DNA of 42,995 nucleotides from a virus. The DNA lies in IMG/VR virus record IMGVR_UViG_3300009159_000119, positions 1 to 42,995 of that record; one strand, given 5' to 3'. Position numbers and translations under genes: made by a program. This document shows positions 12,424 to 41,962 of the stretch, piece by piece. Numbering within the stretch: position 1 is the first letter of the stretch; each line of letters opens with the position of its first letter. The notes below the pieces were generated by a model. It did not search any database. It worked only from the letters and a program-made list of their open reading frames with translations, and was not told the origin of the DNA.

Positions 12424-13650
12424 TCACAGCTCGACGCGGACCGTGCGCCCCGTCTTCGCGACGGTGTCGGTGGTGGACAACCAGAGTGTGGCGACATCCA
12501 CGCTCTCCGGTTCGTCACCACAGAGGTCCGTGAGGTAGACCAGACCCGCGACGTTCTCGCCCGCTTCGACGAGCTCCGCCACTCGGGCGAAGGGCTCGCG
12601 GAAGTCGGTGCCTCCGCCACCCTTGGCGTGCAGCGGCGCGTCCTCGCCGGGTGCGAGGCGATACTCGGCGTGTATGATCGTGTCGCAGTCCATGACGAGC
12701 GCCTCGCAGCCGAGGTCACCGCAGCACTGGCTGATCAGCGCCGTGAACTGAGCCGTGAGCTCATCGTCGATGCTGCCCGACGTGTCGCGGACGAACACCA
12801 CCAGACCAGTCGCGTCGACTTTGCGGCGTGGGTAGATGACCGGAGCCCCAGCGAACCGACGTGCGCTGCGGGTCCAGTCGTTACGCGTCGCGATGGACGA
12901 CTTGAGGAAGTCGGCGGTCTCGTCCCTCCAGTTGAGCGTCACTGGTGTCTTAAGGGCATCGAGCAGCCGCTGGAGCTCGGCGGGCGCGTTGCCTTTGCCG
13001 AGCGCACGGGAGGCTTGGTCGGCCTGCACCAGCGCACGATCCCATTTTTCTTTCATCGTGGGCGGCGGCGTCTTGCCGTGCAGCGGTGCAGGGGTCGGCG
13101 CTGGAGCCTCGAAGCCACCGCACCCGCCAACGTCTGGCGGGGGCTGACCGTTGGGGTCGGGCTGGCCGTTGGGGTCGGGCTGGGGCTGGCCGCCCTGCGG
13201 GGGCTGGCCGCCCTGCGGGCCTTTGCCGCCCTTGGGCGGCGGATCGCGGCGGATCGCGGCGAGGATTTCCTCCTCCGCCATGCCGTCGTATCGCTTGTCG
13301 CGGAGCCCACCCTTGGGCATCGAGACGCCCGCGAGCTTCTCGAGGACGGCGTTGATGGCGTAGTCGCCAGCGATGTTGCCTTCCTCGTTGAGGGGGAGGC
13401 GGTGGAAGTGGTCGTGGGCGCAGTGAAGGGTCTCGTGGAACAACACGAACCGCACCTCTTCGGGGGTGAGCCCCGCGACGAACTCGGGGTTCCAGCGGAT
13501 CACGGCACCGTCGGTGCAGGCTGTGGGGACCGTGGGGTCGATGACGTCGCGGAGGTTCGATGCGAGCGAGCCGTAGAAGGCTGCGTGGGGGGTCGTGAGA
13601 CCCCAGTAGCGGGCTTTGTCGATGGCGATTGGGATCGGAATGGTGGACAT
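12424..13650 (-). CDS. HExxH metallopeptidase-like and VWA domain protein (CobT/DUF2201 type)
   Basis: A 408-aa protein. The N-terminal part carries H72-ETL-H76 within FVLFHETLHCAHDHFHR, a zinc-peptidase-like motif, followed by GDYAINAVLE which may give the third ligand. A low-complexity linker (about 145-195) is made of GGQPPQGGQP and PDPNGQ repeats. The C-terminal part is a VWA-like domain with a MIDAS motif DTSGSI and the distal GGGGTDF motif. This architecture (DUF2201-like) works with a MoxR-type AAA+ ATPase, encoded here at 14561-15595, much like CobS/CobT or MoxR/VWA chaperone pairs. The target that the pair remodels in the phage cycle is unknown. Confidence 0.8.
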   Translation of the reverse strand: MSTIPIPIAIDKARYWGLTTPHAAFYGSLASNLRDVIDPTVPTACTDGAVIRWNPEFVAGLTPEEVRFVLFHETLHCAHDHFHRLPLNEEGNIAGDYAINAVLEKLAGVSMPKGGLRDKRYDGMAEEEILAAIRRDPPPKGGKGPQGGQPPQGGQPQPDPNGQPDPNGQPPPDVGGCGGFEAPAPTPAPLHGKTPPPTMKEKWDRALVQADQASRALGKGNAPAELQRLLDALKTPVTLNWRDETADFLKSSIATRNDWTRSARRFAGAPVIYPRRKVDATGLVVFVRDTSGSIDDELTAQFTALISQCCGDLGCEALVMDCDTIIHAEYRLAPGEDAPLHAKGGGGTDFREPFARVAELVEAGENVAGLVYLTDLCGDEPESVDVATLWLSTTDTVAKTGRTVRVEL

Positions 13651-13661
13651 GGGAAAACAGG

Positions 13662-14462
13662 TTATAGGGAGAACAGGGAGCAGAGGTCGGTAGCGCGTTG
13701 AGCTACGTTGGCACGAGCGATCGGATCGTCTCGGAGGGTCGCGGCGTCGAACTCGGTGAGCTCGGCGGCCTGCGCGGCGAGGGCTGCGATCTGGGGGTCA
13801 TCGCGGAGGTTAAGGTCGGGCACCAGAGCGAGGATTTCGCTCAGGTTACTGACGAGGGTGTCACGGAAGATGCCTTTGGGGTCGCGGAGCTTCTGCGCCA
13901 CCTTGAGGATCGCCTCTGCCAAACGCTCGCGGAGCTCGTCCTGAGCCGCCTTGGATGCCTCGTCGATCCACTCTGCCCACTGACCGACGTCGGGGACGGG
14001 CAGGTAGCGGGTGGTAAAGGAGAACCTCGCGGCCACGACGTCGTGGCTGGGCCACTGGCTGGCAACGTAGAGACCGTTGAGACGGGCTGGGGCGTCTGCA
14101 CGCACGCGGTCGTAATCGGCGAGGAACTGGGACACGAGGGTGTCGATCCGTACGCCGAAGGACTGCATGAGGGCGGAGTGCTCGTACTGGCGGGCGGCGG
14201 GGAGCAAACGGAGCCCCTTGTCGGCTGCGGGCAGCGTGAGGCGATAGTGCTCGGCGCGGGCCTCAGTGTGGAGGCGGGCAATCTCTTCAAGGGCTGGGTG
14301 GGCGCAGATTTTTACATCTACGCGAGCTTCATCGCGGAGACCGTGCCGAGCGTTCTCGGCGGCGGTTTCGGCGGCGTGGCGCTTTACGGTGCGCCATGCG
14401 CCGACGTTTAGGGTCGCGATGACGGCTTTTGAGGACAGGCGGGCGGTGGTGGGAGCATTCAT
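13662..14462 (-). CDS. Hypothetical protein of the MoxR/VWA module (266 aa)
   Basis: Lies between the AAA+ ATPase and the VWA protein, a position often held in phages by a third protein such as DUF3150; the match to that family is only a loose impression. The sequence is helical with an Ala-rich N-terminus (TVKRHAAETAAENARHG), DEARVDVKICAHPAL, a central FGVRIDTLVSQFLADYDRV and a coiled-coil-like stretch WAEWIDEASKAAQDELRERLAEAILKVA in two parts. It could be an adaptor or substrate of the ATPase. No enzymatic motif seen. Confidence 0.65.
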   Translation of the reverse strand: MNAPTTARLSSKAVIATLNVGAWRTVKRHAAETAAENARHGLRDEARVDVKICAHPALEEIARLHTEARAEHYRLTLPAADKGLRLLPAARQYEHSALMQSFGVRIDTLVSQFLADYDRVRADAPARLNGLYVASQWPSHDVVAARFSFTTRYLPVPDVGQWAEWIDEASKAAQDELRERLAEAILKVAQKLRDPKGIFRDTLVSNLSEILALVPDLNLRDDPQIAALAAQAAELTEFDAATLRDDPIARANVAQRATDLCSLFSL

Positions 14463-14512
14463 GGTGATATCGATTGTCTGATGTTGTTGTTGTTGGGTTG
14501 AGAACTGACTGG

Positions 14513-14543
14513 ACCCCCGTTATCGTAGGGCGATAACGGGGGT
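14513..14543. terminator. Perfect 13-bp hairpin after the AAA+ gene
   Basis: ACCCCCGTTATCG (14513-14525) and its exact complement (14531-14543) flank a 5-base loop. It sits 17 bases past the stop of the leftward MoxR-like gene and about 50 bases before the start of the next gene. No U-tract follows on the minus strand, so it may be an attenuator or an RNase-processing or stability element rather than a full terminator. The rest of 14463-14560 holds a short GTT-rich stretch and no gene. Confidence 0.6.
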
Positions 14544-14560
14544 CGGATGAGGTCTCTGGG

Positions 14561-15595
14561 TTACGTGGTGAACAGCGCCTGATTGGCGAGCCACCACTCT
14601 TGCCACGCCTTGTTGCCGACGAGCTTGGCACCGAGGCGGCTGAACGCGTCTTTGGCGCAGTACGCGCCCATCACTCGGGGGAGGCGGGCGATGTAGGTCA
14701 CGAGCTGGCTGGCGTACTTGGCCTCCACTGCCCGACCGAGCATGGCTGCGATCAGGTACTGGGCGGCTGGCTCCGTCGGCACGGGGGCACCGTGGGGGTC
14801 CATCCAGACCTGCTGGGGGGTGGGCAACTGATCGGCGAGGGCTGCGAACGCGAGGAACTCGGCGGCGGCGGGCTTGCCGATGGCGGCGGAGACCGTGGCG
14901 AAGTCGCGCAGGCCAGCCTCCCACAGGTGCCCCACGGTCTCCCACGAGCGGAAGTCGGGCATACGGAGGGCTGGGTCCGCTGCGGGTTTCCACGCGTAGA
15001 GCGTGCGCCCCGTGGTGCTACGGTGCCACGCGATGAGCTCGGGGGCGAAGCCTTGCTGGCCTGCCCAGTTGGCCCAAGCATCGACCTCGTCGCGCCAATT
15101 GGCGATGTACGTCGGGCCATCCGCCTTGTCCTCCGTCGACGGCGTCGCAATGGCAAATGCAACGTGAAACCGCGAGCGGAGCGGCTCGCAGAGGCTGGTG
15201 ACGCCAGCCTTGTCGCCGGGTCGATTAGTCGCGCCCCAGATCACGACGCTCTTGGAGATCGCGCCGTCGTCGAACAGGGCCATGGCGGCGGCTTGGACAT
15301 CGATTGGCGCTTGGCCGAGGTCATCCAAAAACAGGAGGGTGGGGACGGTGGTGTGCCGCAAGTCCCAGAGGAGTTGCAGGGGGAGGCTTTCGGTCACGCC
15401 TTTGGCGGGGTTTGGGACGTAGCAGCCACCGAGGTCCACGCGCTCTGCCAGAGCAGAGCGGAACACGATGAGCTTGCGATTGCAGTCTGAAGCGGCTGCG
15501 GCGACGCGAGCCGTCTTGGCACAACCGGGCGGACCTACGAGGAGGACGCGGCGGTTGGCGTTGAGGAGCTGGGTGAGGCGGGATGATGAGGACAT
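14561..15595 (-). CDS. MoxR-like AAA+ ATPase
   Basis: A 344-aa protein. Walker A is GPPGCAKT at residues 21-28; Walker B is TLLFLDDLGQ; VVIWGATNRPGDKAG is the sensor-1 region; SRFHVAFAI follows as the arginine-finger region. This is the pattern of MoxR/CobS-type AAA+ ATPases that power VWA partner proteins. The partner is encoded two genes downstream. Its 5' end is a near copy of that of the gene at 15984-16277: both mRNAs start with the CAGTCCTCCTATG leader and then ATGTCCTCATCATC (MSSSS). Confidence 0.8.
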   Translation of the reverse strand: MSSSSRLTQLLNANRRVLLVGPPGCAKTARVAAAASDCNRKLIVFRSALAERVDLGGCYVPNPAKGVTESLPLQLLWDLRHTTVPTLLFLDDLGQAPIDVQAAAMALFDDGAISKSVVIWGATNRPGDKAGVTSLCEPLRSRFHVAFAIATPSTEDKADGPTYIANWRDEVDAWANWAGQQGFAPELIAWHRSTTGRTLYAWKPAADPALRMPDFRSWETVGHLWEAGLRDFATVSAAIGKPAAAEFLAFAALADQLPTPQQVWMDPHGAPVPTEPAAQYLIAAMLGRAVEAKYASQLVTYIARLPRVMGAYCAKDAFSRLGAKLVGNKAWQEWWLANQALFTT

Positions 15596-17002: not shown

Positions 17003-17290
17003 ATGACTGGTCGGATGGAGACGATTTACGACCACCACTACCACAATCCAGATTTGAATCCGAAAAAGCGATACAGGCAACGGCAGCGTGATCGGTTTCG
17101 GTGCATCGAGTGCGCGCAGCCGACGGTGCCGGGTTACGTGCGCTGCCAGCGCCACCTCGTGGTGCGGCGGGCGCAGCGGGTTGGTGAGTCGGCCAAAGCA
17201 ACGGCCCGAAAGCATGAGAGAGCGCGGGTCGCTATGTGGCTCCTGTCGCTCGCGGCTCGCGTCCGTCGTGGTCAGGCCGATGTTATTTGA
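17003..17290 (+). CDS. Small zinc-finger protein
   Basis: 95 aa from ATG 17003; ATG 17015 (METIYDHHYHNPDL) is an equally possible start. A basic stretch (NPKKRYRQRQRDRFR) leads into CIECAQPTVPGYVRCQRH, a CxxC-x(n)-CxxH zinc-binding motif, followed by an Arg-rich tail. Such small zinc proteins in phages usually bind DNA or RNA. It is the first rightward gene after the control region; its stop lies at 17288-17290, inside the first TGAGAC palindrome. Confidence 0.6.
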   Translation: MTGRMETIYDHHYHNPDLNPKKRYRQRQRDRFRCIECAQPTVPGYVRCQRHLVVRRAQRVGESAKATARKHERARVAMWLLSLAARVRRGQADVI

Positions 17291-17303
17291 GACTGGGTCT
17301 CAA
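17287..17303. promoter_or_regulatory. TTGAGAC-TGG-GTCTCAA palindrome
   Basis: A perfect dyad with 7-base arms and a 3-base centre, overlapping the stop codon of the zinc-finger gene. It belongs to the TGAGACT-S-AGTCTCA family found again at 17560 and in an array at 18373-18458. Confidence 0.65.
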
Positions 17304-17364
17304 CAGGGTCAAAAACAAGGTTTTCGTAAGTGCTTGAAAACAGGTGGTTTACGTGGGTTGAAAC

Positions 17365-17529
17365 AAACGGGTCGAAATCGATTCCTAGGGGCATTGCGGG
17401 CAATTCTCGGGGGGTCGGGCAAAAACGAGGACGTGGGTATAGGGTTTCAGATGATTTGTTGGCCCACTAATCACTTACGTGATTTCGGAAAATCGGAATA
17501 AGGGCCGCAGAATCGATTTAAACGGGTCG
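17365..17529. repeat. Two composite repeat modules upstream of the TerS-like gene
   Basis: AAACGGGTCG followed by AAATCGATTC at 17365-17384; GAATCGATTT followed by AAACGGGTCG at 17510-17529. The first half is a direct repeat, the second an exact inverted repeat, so the two modules share both parts in different order. The 290-bp stretch 17291-17580 has no gene and must hold the signals for expression of the TerS-like gene. Confidence 0.6.
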
Positions 17530-17559
17530 GGGTGATTTAGGGCTTGCTTTGGAGGCTTA

Positions 17560-17576
17560 TTGCGACTGAGTCTCAG
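17560..17576. promoter_or_regulatory. TTGCGACTGAGTCTCAG site before the TerS-like start
   Basis: A family member of the TGAGACT-S-AGTCTCA sites with one changed base in the left arm; the same bases also form an exact palindrome GACTGAG-T-CTCAGTC (17564-17578). It ends 2-4 bases before ATG 17581, so a protein bound here would block transcription or translation start of the TerS-like gene: autoregulation is possible. Confidence 0.55.
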
Positions 17577-17580
17577 TCCT

Positions 17581-18264
17581 ATGTACGCAAAAGGGGGGCA
17601 TGGGCAACGCGCCAAGGTTGGATCAGTTGATTGGATCGCGTTGCGAAAAGCATTCATCGAGCGAGCCGAGCGACCATTGCTCGCCGAGCTCTCAACTGAG
17701 TTCGGCGTCTCGGTGGATCGCATCAGCCGAGCGTGCAGCGACGAAGGCTGGGCGACTCTGCGTGCAGCTCACTTGGGTGAGCGCCTCAAGGTCGCTGACG
17801 CTGGTGTCGCTCTGCTGCAGGCCGCGAAGGCCGACTCTGCGGTCACGCACGCATTCACGGACGTCGCCCTCGAGGTCGTGAGAGAGGTGCATGGGGTGGT
17901 GGCGCGACTGGGCAACAAGAAGCTGGCCGAGAACACGCGGGCCAACACGCTCAACACCTGCGCGTTCACCCTGAGCAATCTGGCCAATGCACTCGCTCGG
18001 GTCGGCGTGGTCGGGCTACCTAAGTCGCTCAAGGAGTCGGCTGGTGTCGACAGCGGCAACGGGCGCTGGAACCCAGCGATGTTGGCCTCGCTCAACGTCA
18101 CCGTCCAAAACCTGATGGCCCCAGCGCCTCAGGTCGCCGTCGCGGAGGCTCATCCCGCGCCAACGGCTGCGATTCTCGGGGGGTCCGAGCGTCGGATCGG
18201 TCTCGATGCCTCCGATCTGGTGCAGGCCGATGCCGTGAGGGTCACCGCCGACGACGTTCTGTGA
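17581..18264 (+). CDS. Terminase small subunit-like HTH protein
   Basis: 227 aa from ATG 17581; an in-frame TTG at 17560 would place the palindromic site inside the gene. The N-terminal domain (residues about 15-60) is a helix-turn-helix of the terminase small-subunit type: PLLAELSTEFGVSVDRI and ACSDEGWATLR match the usual LxxLAxxFGVSxxTV...EGWxxxR. A long helical middle follows (FTDVALEVVREVHGVVARLGNKK), as in the oligomerisation domains of TerS, then a disordered Ala/Pro-rich tail. TerS recognises the packaging site and loads TerL; packaging sites often lie in or beside its gene. It is flanked by palindromic sites on both sides. TerL is encoded 5.6 kb away on the other strand, so another DNA-binding role remains possible. 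Confidence 0.55.
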   Translation: MYAKGGHGQRAKVGSVDWIALRKAFIERAERPLLAELSTEFGVSVDRISRACSDEGWATLRAAHLGERLKVADAGVALLQAAKADSAVTHAFTDVALEVVREVHGVVARLGNKKLAENTRANTLNTCAFTLSNLANALARVGVVGLPKSLKESAGVDSGNGRWNPAMLASLNVTVQNLMAPAPQVAVAEAHPAPTAAILGGSERRIGLDASDLVQADAVRVTADDVL

Positions 18265-18372
18265 CGGTCGTCACCGAACCGGAGGCGGCGACAGGGGGTT
18301 GACGCCGCAACCCGATGTCCGGCGTAATATGAACCACGATTTGAACCACGGTATGTACCACGATCCGACCCA

Positions 18373-18458
18373 TGAGACTGAGTCTCAATCTCAGTCATTG
18401 AGACTCAGTCTCAGTGAGATTGAGACTCAGTCTCAGTGAGCTTGAGTCTCAGTCGCAA
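18373..18458. repeat. Phased array of four TGAGACT-S-AGTCTCA palindromes
   Basis: Sites are at 18373-18387, 18399-18413, 18421-18435 (each a perfect 7-bp dyad around one base) and an imperfect one in 18442-18458. Centres lie at about 18380, 18406, 18428 and 18450, so spacings are 26, 22 and 22 bp. 18399-18420 and 18421-18442 are 22-bp direct repeats differing at one position. The array lies between two converging genes, so it is not in an ordinary promoter position. Confidence 0.85.
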
Positions 18459-18482
18459 CCCCCACCCCCCCCGCCCCCGCCC
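18459..18482 (-). other. G-quadruplex motif
   Basis: The minus strand carries four G-runs of 3, 5, 8 and 5 bases separated by single C, C and T loops. This is a very strong predicted G-quadruplex. It directly abuts the palindrome array, and the rest of 18483-18551 contains only palindromes and AT-rich sequence. Confidence 0.75.
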
Positions 18483-18497: not shown

Positions 18498-18551
18498 CCC
18501 TCTCAGATTCCGCTATAGTTTTTCACTATTCACGAATAAACAAATTTTGTT

Positions 18552-19412
18552 TTATACCTCTAAAATCCGTTCCAACTTAGCCCGAATCTCAGGCGTAACG
18601 CCTCGACGAGACCAGAAGTAATGCACGGGTGAAACCAATGGTCCATGAGTAGACACGTCATCACCAAACAGGTTGTAGTCCGTCTCGCCAATGGGCTTAC
18701 CGTCTTTGCCCCGTTCCAAGGGCGTTATGCCGTGATCACGCCAGTACTCGCTTGGAGTCACAACCCGCGTGACCACAGTGTACCGTTCACGCCACTGCCC
18801 TGACCCCAAGGCAAACCCACCGATGGTGGGAAACTCCGCAAAGGTCTGGGGAAATTCGTTTCTTTGCAGCAACACGTATTGAGTAAATGGATATCCGTGA
18901 CGATCTTCGATCCACGTCCGCATCTCGCGGTACATTTTGGTCCAGAACACTCCCGGATGCCTGACCATGGTCTCCCACGGCATTTCTATCCCAAGGGCAT
19001 GCTCGACGCACTTTTGCCACGAAGCCCTTGCCGGATAGTGAGCGAAGTCCGAGTACCGCTCACGCACCAAGATCGGCCTATCGTCGCGTATGAACGTCTC
19101 CACCGAGAACGGTTCCTTGAAGACGCAGTCGGAGTCGATGTGAACGACCAGATCCGTGCCTTTGGGCACCCACAGGTCAGCCTCGCACTTCACGACCTGA
19201 TGATGGAGGAAACCCTTCCCAGCAGCCTCGTAGAACAGTCGTAAATTGCATCCATGCTTCTTTGCCAACCGTTCAAATAGTTCACCATCCTTGTACGGCA
19301 CCACAATGGTGATGCCAGCGAACCCCCGACCGAACTTCGCAATTGAGCGAAGGGTGTACGACGTGAAGTCGAAGTCGGGGGCGTACGTGACCAGCAGGAT
19401 TTCGACTTTCAT
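18552..19412 (-). CDS. GT-A type glycosyltransferase-like protein
   Basis: A 286-aa protein starting MKVEILLVTYAPDFDFTSYTLRSI, the opening of a nucleotide-sugar GT-A fold (first strand, then the helix after it). TDLVVHIDSDCVF carries the D-x-D metal and sugar-nucleotide motif near residue 94. The remainder (YWRDHGITPLE, SPVHYFWSRRGVTPEIRAKLE) resembles DUF6492-type transferases. Its start overlaps the stop of the FkbM-like gene by 4 bp (ATGA), so the two are probably made together. It probably modifies a virion protein or the host surface; the substrate is not shown by the sequence. Confidence 0.65.
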   Translation of the reverse strand: MKVEILLVTYAPDFDFTSYTLRSIAKFGRGFAGITIVVPYKDGELFERLAKKHGCNLRLFYEAAGKGFLHHQVVKCEADLWVPKGTDLVVHIDSDCVFKEPFSVETFIRDDRPILVRERYSDFAHYPARASWQKCVEHALGIEMPWETMVRHPGVFWTKMYREMRTWIEDRHGYPFTQYVLLQRNEFPQTFAEFPTIGGFALGSGQWRERYTVVTRVVTPSEYWRDHGITPLERGKDGKPIGETDYNLFGDDVSTHGPLVSPVHYFWSRRGVTPEIRAKLERILEV

Positions 19413-22636: not shown

Positions 22637-23014
22637 CTAAGTTTTATAGGCTATAAAGTAATTTTCTACGCGTTGCCCGTAATCGTCTCGGTCGGGATTT
22701 TTTCTGCGGGCCAGTGCTCCACTCCAACCGCGATTCCACATCAACGCTAAAAGGTACGGAGTGGGTTGAATGTCCAAAACGTGTAATCGGCGAATGAATT
22801 TGATCAGACGTTGTTCGGCCAATTCACGAGAGAATGTTCGGTTTGCAGCTTTATTAAATTCTTCTTTGGTCTCCTCTGACCAAGCGGCTTTTGACCATTG
22901 TAGCCCACCCCCCGCCGAGGTCCACGAGGAGTTTTCAACAGCTTCGATGGCCCGAACCAATCGAGGGACGTCTGGGTTTCCTGCAAAGCCTAGAATGAGT
23001 GCGAGACCGATCAT
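22637..23014 (-). CDS. Lysozyme-like protein (putative muramidase/transglycosylase fold)
   Basis: 125 aa from ATG 23014 in an ATGA overlap with the recombinase gene. PRLVRAIEAVENSSW resembles the opening helix with catalytic Glu of phage lysozyme-like proteins (usual AIxxxExG); TPYLLALMWNRGWSGAL resembles the later LAxxWNxG block, and DYGQRVENYF resembles the closing YAxRVxNLY helix. The glycine-rich active-site strand is not clear. A role as endolysin or virion lysozyme is possible, but a non-enzymatic relative is equally possible. Confidence 0.4.
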   Translation of the reverse strand: MIGLALILGFAGNPDVPRLVRAIEAVENSSWTSAGGGLQWSKAAWSEETKEEFNKAANRTFSRELAEQRLIKFIRRLHVLDIQPTPYLLALMWNRGWSGALARRKNPDRDDYGQRVENYFIAYKT

Positions 23015-23619
23015 ATGGGGCTGTTCGTCCTCGCAGTCTGAGCCAATCGGAAAGCAGTTGATACCGATACCCCACCCAAGCGGTTGGCCAGCTCGCGCAC
23101 TTGAGTCGCGCCCTCCTTGAGCCACTGATCCACGATTTCACCGTGGTTCTCAGGCAGACGCTTTGACGGTTTGCCGAGCTTCACGCCTCGTGCCTTTGCC
23201 GCTGCAAGGCCAGCCTTGGTGCGCTCGATGATGAGCGAACGCTCGAACTCAGCCACAGCAGCAAGGACGTGCATCTGGAGTCGTCCTGCGGGGTTGGCTT
23301 TGGAAGTGTCGATCCCTTGACCGGGGCACACCAGCGCCACCCCATGCTTGTCAAACTCCGCTACGAGCTGGGCAAAGTGCGAAAGCGACCGCGCCAGACG
23401 GTCCAACTTCACGACAAGAACCGCGTCGTACCGCTTTTGCCGGACCTGTGCCAGCATCTTGTCCAGTGCAAGACGGGTCGACCTAGAACCCGAAATTGTG
23501 TCGACGAACGTGTCGGCCACAATCCAGCCACGTTGGGCGGCGTAGGCTTGAAGCTCCATTTTCTGAGGATCAGTTGTCTGATCGTCGGTAGAGACTCTGA
23601 GGTATAAGGCAATTTTCAT
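23011..23619 (-). CDS. Serine recombinase (resolvase/invertase type)
   Basis: 202 aa from ATG 23619 (MKIALYLRVSTDDQTTDPQ) with Ser10 as nucleophile. The catalytic core is complete: YLRVSTDDQ, AVLVVKLDRLARSLSHFAQLV and GRLQMHVLAAVAEFERSLI with the E-R-x-x-I segment, then ERTKAGLAAAKARGVKLG and a C-terminal HTH (TQVRELANRLGGVSVSTAFRL). The size is that of resolvases/invertases, not of large serine integrases, so roles include dimer or concatemer resolution, DNA inversion, or a mobile element. No inverted recombination sites were recognised nearby. Confidence 0.9.
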   Translation of the reverse strand: MKIALYLRVSTDDQTTDPQKMELQAYAAQRGWIVADTFVDTISGSRSTRLALDKMLAQVRQKRYDAVLVVKLDRLARSLSHFAQLVAEFDKHGVALVCPGQGIDTSKANPAGRLQMHVLAAVAEFERSLIIERTKAGLAAAKARGVKLGKPSKRLPENHGEIVDQWLKEGATQVRELANRLGGVSVSTAFRLAQTARTNSPI

Positions 23620-23667
23620 GGAACTCACTCTGGTTCGATGACCCCCCACATGTAAAGAAAAATCTTA

Positions 23668-23886: not shown

Positions 23887-25872
23887 TCAATCCTTCATCA
23901 TGTCTCCAGTCGAGGCGATACCGGAGTCCATGCCCGACATACTAGCACCACCAAACGCCATCTCGAACCCCTCCCAATCGGAGGACTGGTCTCGTCGAAC
24001 CTCACCGATGACCTTGGTATCTTTGGCTCTCGGTACGAGGGAAGGTACGCGCATTCGAGCAACGTGGAGCATGATGAGGAAAGAGTCGGCTCGGTCTGGA
24101 GACGTTTCTCCGGTGCGGGCCTTGTAGGAGTCTTTCGGCTCGACCGATTGCCTCTTGCCGATCCCCACCTTCATTCCTCCGCGACGACCCGCGAGTTCGT
24201 CGCTGGTCTTGATGTCCACGCCTCGGCCAATGCGGACGATATCATACTCAAAAAGTTTTGCGCCAGCCATCCAGAGCTCGGTGGCGGTGCGGTCGTAAAG
24301 CTCTTTTGGGGTCTCGGTATCCTCGTCGGCGATCTTTACTTCCGATGGGCTGGACGCGTACTCCACTCCCAGAATCGGGGCCAATCCCTCGGCATCTTCT
24401 GACAATGGTCCGACCTTGTTTCCCCATTGACGACGTATGACGTCATGCACTCCACGACCCGTACCCGTTTTATCGATACCAAAATTCTCCGGAAGCAGGT
24501 GCAAGACTTTGCACCGGCTCATGTTTTCGTCCGCGACGTCTTGAGTATCGCCATGCGGCAGGATCGCAGTGGCGTCGGCTTGGATCTTGATCGCGGGCTC
24601 AGGCAGGTCGTGCCGGTCACCCTTGTAGTCGGTCCAGCCCACGGCTCGACCCACGCGACCGATGGTCATGGCAGGCAAATCGCTCGTGAACGCGGGGTCG
24701 GACCCAGCGATGGTTTGAGTAGGACCATCGAAGATCCACTCGCCCTCGGCTCGACGAAGGTGAGCAGAGTTGATGATCGATGTCTGCACGCCCGTTTTTG
24801 GGAATCGACCGTAGACGTAAGTGTAGACGTTGGGGTGCTGGTCGTTGCCACCGGCCTGTGATCGGATAATTTTTTGCACGCCCTCGTACGTGATCATGCG
24901 GGGGAAGATTGTCTTTTTCGCCAATACGTTCTCCGTCCTCATGGCGTTAATTGAGATGACGTGCCAACCGGTTTCCGATTCCCACTCGTCTTGGTCGTCG
25001 GCCACCGCTTCCCATCCACCCACTGGTTTGCAGTTCATCCCATAACGAGACCACTCGTCTTTCGGATTTGCCGCCGCCATAATCTTGATGTGCTCGACCG
25101 AGTCGTCGACCGACGACAACAAGTTGGGGGTATCGTCAAAGATGTTGGCAGGAATTTCCTGCGCCTCGTCGAGGAGGATTCTCAGCCGAGAGTTGTCACC
25201 GAACAACGGGTGAGTCGGACGGTTCTTTATCTTGGCACCCTTCAATTTACCACGCGACTTGGGTCCACCCGGAATGACCAACACGAAAATCCCCATGCCT
25301 CGCTTCTTGTCGAGTGATATGGACTCGGAGTCTATGTTACCCGGCAACGGCAGCACCGACTCAGTGTGCAAACGGACGATATCGGCGAAAAGGTTTTTCT
25401 CAACGTGGTCTTGGGAGTTGGACGCAACTTCGATGCGCGTCCACTCAGGGTCGAGCAGCCAGTCGAGGACACACCACGCGGATGGGGTGAAGGTCTTTCC
25501 AACCGATCCGCAGCCCATGACGTTGATCAAATTTTTAGTGAACAGGGCGTTCCACATCTGTTGCGCGGCCTTGGGCTCGGGCGTGAAAGTTTTCGGACCC
25601 CACAACACAAATGCGGCTGCGACGTAGTCTCGTGCGTACAACAGTGAGTAGACGTAGGCCCACGCCATGGCCTGCATGTCTGACGGCTTCTGCATCGGCT
25701 TGCGGAGCGTCGGGTTGTTCTGGACGTAGCGCATGAACTCCGTGTCTTGAAACATCCGTCCGACCGCATTTGCCAAGGCTGCGGCGTCACTATTTTCCCG
25801 ATACAGAAACAGGTTCTGGTGAATGTAGCGGAGGCTGGCCCGACGGGCCTTGTCGGGAAGTATTACCGGCAT
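23887..25872 (-). CDS. terL: Terminase large subunit
   Basis: A 661-aa packaging motor. The ATPase domain shows a Walker A GCGSVGKT at residues 120-127 and Walker B RILLDEAQE with Asp235-Glu236; MAAANPKDEW is the coupling motif. The RNase H-like nuclease domain begins with AGSDPAF (Asp392), continues with GIDKTGTGRGVHDVI and ends with SPDRADSFLIMLHVAR carrying the last acidic residue. It cuts concatemeric DNA and drives it into the prohead through the portal. It is transcribed leftward, away from the portal and capsid genes, which is unusual. The start overlaps the glycosyltransferase gene by 10 bp. Confidence 0.9.
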   Translation of the reverse strand: MPVILPDKARRASLRYIHQNLFLYRENSDAAALANAVGRMFQDTEFMRYVQNNPTLRKPMQKPSDMQAMAWAYVYSLLYARDYVAAAFVLWGPKTFTPEPKAAQQMWNALFTKNLINVMGCGSVGKTFTPSAWCVLDWLLDPEWTRIEVASNSQDHVEKNLFADIVRLHTESVLPLPGNIDSESISLDKKRGMGIFVLVIPGGPKSRGKLKGAKIKNRPTHPLFGDNSRLRILLDEAQEIPANIFDDTPNLLSSVDDSVEHIKIMAAANPKDEWSRYGMNCKPVGGWEAVADDQDEWESETGWHVISINAMRTENVLAKKTIFPRMITYEGVQKIIRSQAGGNDQHPNVYTYVYGRFPKTGVQTSIINSAHLRRAEGEWIFDGPTQTIAGSDPAFTSDLPAMTIGRVGRAVGWTDYKGDRHDLPEPAIKIQADATAILPHGDTQDVADENMSRCKVLHLLPENFGIDKTGTGRGVHDVIRRQWGNKVGPLSEDAEGLAPILGVEYASSPSEVKIADEDTETPKELYDRTATELWMAGAKLFEYDIVRIGRGVDIKTSDELAGRRGGMKVGIGKRQSVEPKDSYKARTGETSPDRADSFLIMLHVARMRVPSLVPRAKDTKVIGEVRRDQSSDWEGFEMAFGGASMSGMDSGIASTGDMMKD

Positions 25873-35772: not shown

Positions 35773-36882
35773 ATGTCCTGCGCTGGTCAGACCCAATGTT
35801 TGCCTCCGAAGGCCACGCTATTGTTTTTCAACGGTATCAGCGGACCCATCGGCCCAACCGGTCCATACGGCCCGACTGGTCCTCAAGGTACTCCGGGCGG
35901 CGCTACGGGAGCTACGGGTGCCGCTGGCAGTACGGGTCCGACTGGACTCGCTGGAGCTATTGGAGTCAGCGGATTGGCGGGTCAGTCTGGACCGCTCTGC
36001 GTATTTCGTGGGGCGTACAATATCGTCCAAAGGTACTATTACAATGCGTCTCGACGGGACGTGGTACTTTACAACAACACGTTTTGGCTAGCGAACAACC
36101 CGTCCAAAGACGCTCAAGTGAATTGGGGTACCCCCGGAACTAGCCCCGATTGGGTCACGTTCGGCAGCGTGTTCTCCATGATCGCGACGGGCCTGTTACT
36201 GACCGAGAACGCCATAATTACGGTTAGCCTTACACTTGGTCAGACTGGATCGAACGTCGGGTTCATTCAATCGGCCAACTACGTTTCGGGGGTAAGTGGA
36301 TTCTTGATACGAGCCGATGGGTTTGCAGAATTTAACGACGTTCTAGTGAGAGGTAAAATCTCCACGACATCAGAGAAGTTTAACCCCCAAGATACGGTAC
36401 GTACCATGCCTCCGGTGGGGTATTCGTCGCAAGGGTTTGCTCAGATAGATAACGTGGATATCCCTGAGAATCCCAATCAGTACTACAGTGGGGACAACGC
36501 TCCCTACCTGACATCGCTGATAATGTACGGCTGGATGAGTGGACCAGCGTCGTTTCAAACCAACCGTTTTGGCATTTCCCAGCAGCCGTTCTCGGTCAGC
36601 ATCCAAGGCACGACGGAGAATACATCACCTTCCGGACAGTTCCTGTACACCGATCTAGTTTATCGCTTACGAAATAACGGTGGTTCGTGGGGAAGTTGGG
36701 TTCCCATTGGGTTCACCACTCGGTCGTTGCCGGGCGTGGAAGTCACCTTCCAAAACATCGCGTTTGTTGTTGTCACACTAACGGGCACACAAGATATCCA
36801 GTTCGGAGCCGGATGGTCAAAGGGTGTCGGCGGAGTTACGATCGTGCAGGGTGCTCTTCTGTCCGTGCAAGCATTCAACTAA
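35773..36882 (+). CDS. Collagen-like fibre protein (369 aa)
   Basis: Preceded by an SD-like AGAGGAAA. After [21 protein letters not shown] a short Gly-X-Y region (residues about 22-72) contains [19 protein letters not shown] and further GATGATG-type triplets. Then [20 protein letters not shown] and [11 protein letters not shown] give a small carbohydrate-binding-like module often found in tail fibres. A coil-like part, then a C-terminal beta-sandwich ([24 protein letters not shown]) follows. The collagen part would trimerise the fibre; the C-terminal parts probably contact the host. Confidence 0.75.
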
Positions 36883-36883
36883 C

Positions 36884-38565
<1,682 letters not shown>

Positions 38566-38566
<1 letters not shown>

Positions 38567-38769
38567 TGCCCGACAATATCTATCCTAACGATCCGAACGG
38601 CTCCAACTGGGTTAAACTCGGCCAATGGCTGGAAGTTTGGTACGCCATGTACGGCCAACCTGTTCCCACAGGAGATCCGCTGCTCTCCCCTATTCGTGAC
38701 AACGATACCGAAGGAACAAAGTTTGCCAAATGGCAGCGTTGGCTTAAAGCCATCCACCAAGTTTCTTAA
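38566..38769 (+). CDS. Small fibre-associated protein (67 aa)
   Basis: Its ATG shares one base with the stop of the fibre gene (TAATG). Starts MPDNIYPNDPNGSNWVKLGQ. The segment GDPLLSPIRDNDTEGTKFAKWQRWLKAI matches SDPLLRDLTVFDSEGTRWAVIQRWLTQI at the N-terminus of the next gene, in shorter pieces. It may be a small attachment or docking module for fibres. Function unknown. Confidence 0.65.
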
Positions 38770-38781
38770 CCAAATAATCCC

Positions 38782-39219
38782 ATGCCTTCCGATCCCCTCT
38801 TACGTGACCTGACTGTTTTCGACTCCGAAGGCACTCGCTGGGCGGTAATCCAGCGTTGGTTGACACAGATCGTCAGCACCGGTGGCGGCACCGGCAAAGA
38901 CTTCGCGACGATGTTTTTCGTCGGGTCGGCCATCCTTAACAACACGTTCGGGTACTTCAAGGCTGTCAACACCACCAACTGGACTCGCGCACAGTTGTCG
39001 TGTCAGACCCCTCCGACCGGCTCCGCGATCATCATCACGTTTGTCAATGGGTCGGGCACAAGCCTCGGGGTTACGGCTACGATTGCTGCTGGAGCATCGT
39101 ACCAAGAAACGGTTTTTGGGTCTCCGTTGTCTCTGGCGATTGGCACCGAAGTACGGGCCAAGATCACGCAGATCGGCTCCACGACTCCGGGCGGGTATAT
39201 CACGGTGAGCCTGCTGTAA
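38782..39219 (+). CDS. Fibre protein with beta-sandwich domain (145 aa)
   Basis: The N-terminus shares the DPLL...(D/S)EGT(R/K)...QRWL docking segment with the 67-aa protein. From residue 38 the sequence (FATMFFVGSAILNNTFGYFK, QTPPTGSAIIITFVNGSG, IGSTTPGGYITVSLL) matches the beta-sandwich domain in the middle of the fibre at 36884. It is therefore a free-standing copy of that domain joined to a docking segment. Probably a virion surface protein. Confidence 0.7.
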   Translation: MPSDPLLRDLTVFDSEGTRWAVIQRWLTQIVSTGGGTGKDFATMFFVGSAILNNTFGYFKAVNTTNWTRAQLSCQTPPTGSAIIITFVNGSGTSLGVTATIAAGASYQETVFGSPLSLAIGTEVRAKITQIGSTTPGGYITVSLL

Positions 39220-39227
39220 AATGACCC

Positions 39228-41249
<2,022 letters not shown>

Positions 41250-41272
41250 TTTACTCCTAACCACCTACCAAC

Positions 41273-41962
41273 ATGAGCTGCGGATGCGGAAACAATAACT
41301 GTAACGGGAACTGCGGAGGCGATTGCAATCAGGCTGGTGACATGTGCGCTCCTCCAGTGCCGATCGTCACCATCGTGGCTGGACCGGTTGGACCTACCGG
41401 AGCCACCGGCCCATCGGGTGTGGCGGGGTATGGCGTGACTGGCCCGACTGGCCCCACGGGTCTTCAGGGCATCCCCGGTCCCATCGGCGCGAACGGCACT
41501 ACCGGCGCAAGCGGTGCTACCGGTGCCAGCGGAGCTCCAGTTGCGCTGTTCACGGGAGTGATCTGGAACCCCAGCGTCCCCACCGACGGCATCGAGGCAT
41601 TGCAGGGGTCTCGGGTGCTCGATTTCGGCACGGTCAACTTCAACAGCGGTGACTACCTCTTCAGTCTGAAGATGCAGATCGGCTGGAACGCTGGTGCCGT
41701 TGGACCCAACAACCTCAACGGCTCGGTCGACTTCATCGACGGCACCGTGACCCGCAACGTCTTCAAGTGGGGCCGATCCAAGTCCGAAGCATCTGGATAT
41801 CAGTATGGTGTCGCCGAAGCCTACGACTTCTGGTTCATTGCCACCGTCACGAACGGTCAGAATGTCCGGCTGGTCGCTTCCGATCAGTTTTACCTGCTCG
41901 GAGCGCAACTCGTGGCGTTCCCACTTCCTACCAACACCATCACGTCCCCCGGATTCATTTAA
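41273..41962 (+). CDS. Collagen-like protein with Cys-rich N-terminus (229 aa)
   Basis: The N-terminus [20 protein letters not shown] has seven Cys in the first 32 residues (with CAPP), then a Gly-X-Y region (about 39-92) with [20 protein letters not shown] and GATGASGA triplets. The C-terminal part (about 95-229) is a beta domain ([43 protein letters not shown]). The Cys cluster could knot the trimer or bind metal. Probably a fibre or a capsid decoration protein. Confidence 0.7.

Follow-up and report, generated by a model that had tools for sequence, protein, structure and literature searches.

Probable Fur-type palindromes around the terminase small subunit gene of a virus, and a separate packaging-site candidate

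Introduction

A palindrome that is gathered around one phage gene raises the question of which protein reads it. The window analysed here is the whole IMG/VR viral record IMGVR_UViG_3300009159_000119 (42,995 nucleotides), and the gene is a putative terminase small subunit gene (terS). A first-pass annotation made from the sequence had proposed that the terminase small subunit (TerS) binds these palindromes, so that the cluster could be the packaging (pac/cos) site and a copy before terS could give autoregulation. It listed a replication origin or the operators of a repressor as alternatives. We asked how well each of these proposals agrees with the window, its relatives, other viruses and bacterial genomes.

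Results

Palindromes around terS

The consensus TGAGACT-S-AGTCTCA is present in three perfect copies, two copies with one mismatch and one copy with two, all inside 1.2 kb around the terS-type gene. The exact 15-mer (TGAGACTSAGTCTCA) starts at 18373, 18399 and 18421, and the one-mismatch copies start at 17288 (TGAGACTGGGTCTCA) and 17561 (TGCGACTGAGTCTCA). The palindromes noticed earlier are therefore real, with the reservation that the sixth, noted at 18442, is weak: TGAGTCTCAGTCGCA at 18443 has two mismatches, and an overlapping two-mismatch register at 18437 is equally good. When up to three mismatches were allowed, the window held 12 matches, whereas 100 dinucleotide shuffles averaged 1.3 and never exceeded 5. 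At up to two mismatches, no other copy was found in the window or in the rest of the three clade A genomes described below, in line with the first-pass annotation, which had noticed none elsewhere. Rfam returned only sub-threshold microRNA matches, which the palindromes themselves produce.

The sites fall at three places. U1 (17288..17302, one mismatch) overlaps the stop codon of a small zinc-finger ORF, and U2 (17561..17575, one mismatch) ends 5 nt before the terS start codon, ATG 17581. The remaining sites form an array of four boxes. Two-mismatch registers shifted by 6 bp, at 18379 and 18415, overlap perfect copies and make 21-bp units of box 1 (18373..18393, perfect 15-mer at its start) and box 3 (18415..18435, perfect 15-mer at 18421). 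Box 2 (18399..18413) is a perfect 15-mer, and the weak box 4 (18437..18457) consists of two overlapping two-mismatch registers. The core spacing is 26, 22 and 22 bp, in agreement with the 22-26 bp phasing reported before. The array begins about 108 bp past the terS stop and, as had also been noted, it lies between convergent genes: terS ends at 18264 and a minus-strand gene occupies 18552-19412.

The terminase genes and the upstream ORF

The terS-like gene (17581..18264, plus strand) encodes 227 amino acids with a predicted N-terminal helix-turn-helix and long helices. Its structure model has low confidence overall (mean pLDDT 55), with pLDDT 84-90 in the helix-turn-helix region. A fold search with this low-confidence model gave no match at E<=0.001, and the protein passes no family cut-off in the family libraries. 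A distant relative, L059, belongs to phrog_1206 (terminase small subunit); it overlaps the gene for the terminase large subunit (TerL), which is followed by a large ORF read as a portal protein. The N-terminal helix-turn-helix, the helical core and this relative in a TerS-TerL-portal operon support the earlier reading of the window gene as TerS. The window has its own TerL gene at 23887..25872 on the minus strand. The protein had no library match, and we base its identity on its motifs (Walker A GCGSVGKT, Walker B LRILLDEAQE). Neither TerS nor TerL matched annotated phages, and no promoter recognisable beyond chance was found for terS.

The small ORF upstream of terS (17015..17290, plus strand) encodes a CxxC...CxxH zinc finger. 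It directly precedes terS in all relatives seen and diverges strongly between clades.

Relatives of the locus

Searches with TerS yielded relatives that we group as clade A (G001 and G002, with the window), clade B (G003 and G004) and clade C (G009 and G010). When two adjacent palindromes served as a DNA query, both clade A contigs were recovered independently. In clade A the boxes are kept at all three places in the same layout; U1 is perfect in G001 and is retained in G002, and the core of U2 is identical in both. Clades B and C have none of these boxes, even though their terS genes and the region that follows are homologous to those of the window (TerS 47-61% identical). Clade B has palindromes of its own, TGAATATTCA, at L006:9860 and 9933 (the same in L007), 74 bp upstream of and overlapping the terS start; they may be a putative operator that differs from that of clade A.

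The slot behind terS

The region behind terS, which we call the slot, has the same order in clades A, B and C: terS, a dyad, clade-specific direct repeats, a C-tract and an AT block. In the window, the conserved dyad TGACGRYCGTCA lies at 18262..18273. It is followed by three copies of the 12-bp direct repeat ATNTGAACCACG (18327..18362, plus strand), the copy number of which varies in clade A. The C-tract (18459..18482, plus strand; the minus strand is G-rich) is conserved in all clades, and so is the AT block GATTCCGCTATNGTTTTTYACTATTCACGAA (18506..18554, plus strand), behind which a weak inverted repeat precedes a T-run. The dyad and the AT block occur once per genome, as counted in the sequence available for each. 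The direct repeats are a 12-bp ATCTGAACCACG in clade A, GTAGGCAAC in clade B (L006:10745-10815) and TGCAAACGCTTGGC in clade C (L049:1335-1368), and the latter two are candidate TerS-binding repeats. An apparent match between upstream region and slot in clade C, CAAACGCTTTGC, was dropped because the motif shared in clades B and C was not above chance. Elsewhere in clade C (L049:3001-3110), repeated TCACCGAAC-like half-dyads lie upstream of a leftward replication operon; they resemble half of the conserved dyad behind terS.

Two relatives are informative about this region. G013 (L024:1632-7392) shares the replication module (primase, SSB, exonuclease and AAA genes), but its TerL is unrelated and its TerS-like gene is different. 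In this genome the end of terS directly abuts the next gene, and there is neither slot nor array. We interpret G013 as a natural swap of the terminase module in which the slot was lost. G004 is a circular 63.8-kb assembly with an exact 127-bp end overlap (L044:1-127, L047:3808-3934), and it is cut at the C-tract beside the slot. This cut could reflect packaging ends or a tract that is hard to sequence; it is suggestive rather than decisive because a C-tract can itself break assemblies.

The same 15-mer in Verrucomicrobiota

The exact 15-mer is also found in bacteria. In one Verrucomicrobiota family (40 genomes) it occurs 8 times, compared with 0 matches to the control pattern, and in a Verrucomicrobiota order (190 genomes) it occurs 17 times, compared with 3. 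The consensus box is rare even in this order, since just 15 of the 190 genomes hold an exact copy. Of 289 Verrucomicrobiota genomes, 2 carried a strict 17-mer: in one it immediately precedes a gene for a FecA-like TonB receptor, and in the other it precedes an outer-membrane porin gene.

We read 17 sites in their loci. Five lie directly before genes for TonB-dependent receptors (L077, L091, L094, L095 and L096), three before FeoB genes or operons (L098, L100 and L101), three before AraC regulators (L078, L092 and L099) and two before outer-membrane porin-like genes (L076 and L102). Single sites precede a PepSY protein gene (L104) and a DUF3450 gene (L097), another has a ferritin and a TonB receptor nearby (L093), and the site in L103 has no iron link. 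In many of these loci, 4-30 nt separate the box from the start codon that follows. When the whole window was scored with a matrix derived from these bacterial sites, the phage boxes ranked at the top, five of them scoring 21.2-29.8 against a shuffled maximum of 13.6. The Verrucomicrobiota genomes G261, G289 and G020 have 2-4 FUR-domain genes each; the phages have none in the sequence available for them.

The only cellular relative of TerS is in a Verrucomicrobia MAG, and a TerL search of 388 Verrucomicrobiota genomes phylum-wide found none. The phage probably infects Verrucomicrobiota. Its host is probably of a family other than that of this MAG, because the family of the MAG had no exact box in 100 genomes.

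Box clusters in other viruses

Box scans revealed clusters of two or more boxes in no fewer than five additional viral lineages, in three of them near the terminase. Two boxes lie upstream of terS-terL in L011, two lie about 0.5 kb upstream of terS-terL in L062, L069, L072 and L073, and four or more lie upstream of an operon containing terS and terL in L064, L065 and L074. TerS and TerL were named in L062 and L064, and TerS in L011, from gene order and inspection of the sequences rather than from library matches. In L010, L012 and L070 the boxes are near a sigma-like and a D5-like gene (L114 and L116 are single-box relatives), and L071 represents a further lineage with a cluster. Searches with the array gave only weak 25-bp haloarchaeal matches among annotated phages (E 0.9) and none among plasmids.

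Some of the unrelated viral contigs carry arrays of 3-5 boxes: L064:399-540, L065:460-598, L071:56-201, L010:41-153 and L012:9207-9290.

Discussion

We propose that the palindromes are very probably Fur-type boxes. This identification is a predicted binding specificity that is based on the functions of the genes downstream of the bacterial copies and on the layout of the sites. Fur boxes of the 7-1-7 type, and the binding of two Fur dimers on 21 bp, have been described (PMC7536154). The phage sites likewise consist of two inverted heptamers around one base, and 6-bp-shifted overlapping copies extend them to 21 bp. Their consensus is the 15-mer that stands at iron-uptake genes of Verrucomicrobiota, directly before start codons. 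They differ from known Fur boxes in that a phage carries them, around terS, and in that the tandem array lies at convergent gene ends, not at a promoter. Also, the classical core is TGATAAT, whereas the phage core is TGAGACT. As the phage has no Fur gene of its own, Fur of the host would be the protein that binds them. The suggestion of repressor operators, made last in the first-pass annotation, thus came closest, with host Fur as the most likely repressor.

Our model of what the boxes do begins with iron-loaded host Fur, which would bind U2 in the terS leader, and U1, and repress terS. The position of U2, 5 nt upstream of the ATG and placed like the host boxes, suggests this control, and we consider it somewhat probable. 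The array, in which three boxes are strong and one is weak, lies between gene ends and would act as a sink for Fur or as a looping partner. When genome copies go up or iron goes down, Fur would be titrated; this would free terS for packaging and might derepress iron uptake by the host. The array lies away from any recognisable promoter, so its role is putative, and a function as a Fur sink is possible but doubtful. Taken as a whole, a reading in which host Fur sites on the phage repress terS and the array serves as sink or loop is the one that we moderately favour. Against it count the terS genes of clades B and C, which lack these boxes, the failure to recognise a promoter at terS beyond chance, the rarity of the exact box in the bacterial order, and two results on the host: the empty TerL search and the MAG family without an exact box. 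A similar effect is exploited in the Fur titration assay, where many extra Fur boxes on replicating DNA can deplete free Fur. That assay is a laboratory tool that uses plasmids, whereas here the DNA is a natural phage genome and the titration is putative.

The strongest competitor is the original proposal that TerS binds the palindromes, recognising the array for packaging (pac/cos) and regulating its own gene through the sites at 17288 and 17561. In its favour, the sites are confined to the two sides of terS, and the sharing of the motif between upstream region and slot in clade A is far above chance; the slot is gone where TerS and TerL are replaced; and the circular relative G004 is cut beside it. 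However, clades B and C keep a homologous TerS and slot without the palindromes, and their upstream regions share no motif with their slots above chance. The helix-turn-helix of TerS varies among the window, G001 and G002, whereas the palindromes remain constant. Finally, unrelated phages whose TerS proteins are also unrelated carry the motif, and it stands at iron genes of bacteria. Its absence from two of the three clades that share terS and slot, together with its presence in these phages and bacteria, makes the palindromes an improbable TerS site. It is still less probable that a phage-encoded regulator, such as the small zinc-finger protein, uses them as operators and shares the Fur-box sequence by chance. 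This protein is encoded directly before terS in all relatives, its strong divergence between clades would fit such a role, and the operators stand on both sides of the intergenic region between its gene and terS. Yet the ORF is present in G013, which lacks the sites, no other phage promoter carries them, and they are unlikely to match the Fur box of the bacterial order by chance.

We regard a replication role for the array and the repeats next to it, as iterons or as an origin, as very improbable. Tandem repeats do lie beside an AT-rich block, and the cumulative GC skew has its maximum near the slot in four genomes. But such a maximum has the look of a terminus rather than an origin, and locally it reflects the C-tract, so we did not use the peak as evidence. 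Moreover, the clades have exchanged the repeat sequence but conserved the replication module, and G013 keeps that module without slot or array. The earlier alternative of an origin is therefore disfavoured.

If the palindromes are read by host Fur, where is the packaging site? The slot (dyad, direct repeats, C-tract and AT block) is a separate element and a likelier pac/cos site than the palindromes, which are an addition to it in clade A. Lambda cosB and SPP1 pac are pac/cos sites with TerS-binding repeats. Like such sites, the slot adjoins terS, has a conserved dyad and clade-specific direct repeats, and seems to be exchanged together with the terminase. The palindromes, in contrast, are restricted to clade A and match the site of a host regulator. 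The slot is the better candidate because it is found in all three clades and is absent in G013, where the terminase was swapped and the replication module was kept; it goes with the terminase, as expected of a packaging site. Thus, part of the pac/cos proposal may hold for the slot and not for the palindromes. For this phage group, the slot is a cleaner candidate for a packaging site.

Host iron-acquisition genes are raised during infection by Pseudomonas phage PAK_P4 and Rhodococcus phage WC1, by means that are unexplained (PMC10986025). Host Fur boxes on a phage genome, at a packaging gene and in arrays, would be a protein-free mechanism that can be tested. In the literature searched, we found no text with the exact 15-mer and no precedent for a phage Fur-box array. 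We hypothesize, as a speculation that we rate as rather unlikely, that unrelated phage lineages carry arrays of host Fur boxes, often near the terminase, and that replication titrates Fur and so releases packaging genes and host iron uptake together. If true, this would be a switch coupled to copy number and iron that is made from DNA alone. Apart from the phage, a sequence-based Fur-box prediction is now available for a Verrucomicrobiota order.

Other features of the window

A serine resolvase/invertase gene (23011-23649) lies beside TerL in the window, as it does in most relatives. We set the palindromes aside as serine-recombinase sites by reasoning, as their centre is a single base and they stand around terS. 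Collagen-like Gly-X-Thr repeat proteins are encoded at 35773-41962, and the contigs of G001, G002 and G003 end within repeats of this kind. In the replication arm of the phage, at 12424-15595, genes for DUF2201 (VWA-like), DUF3150-like and AAA ATPase proteins adjoin each other.
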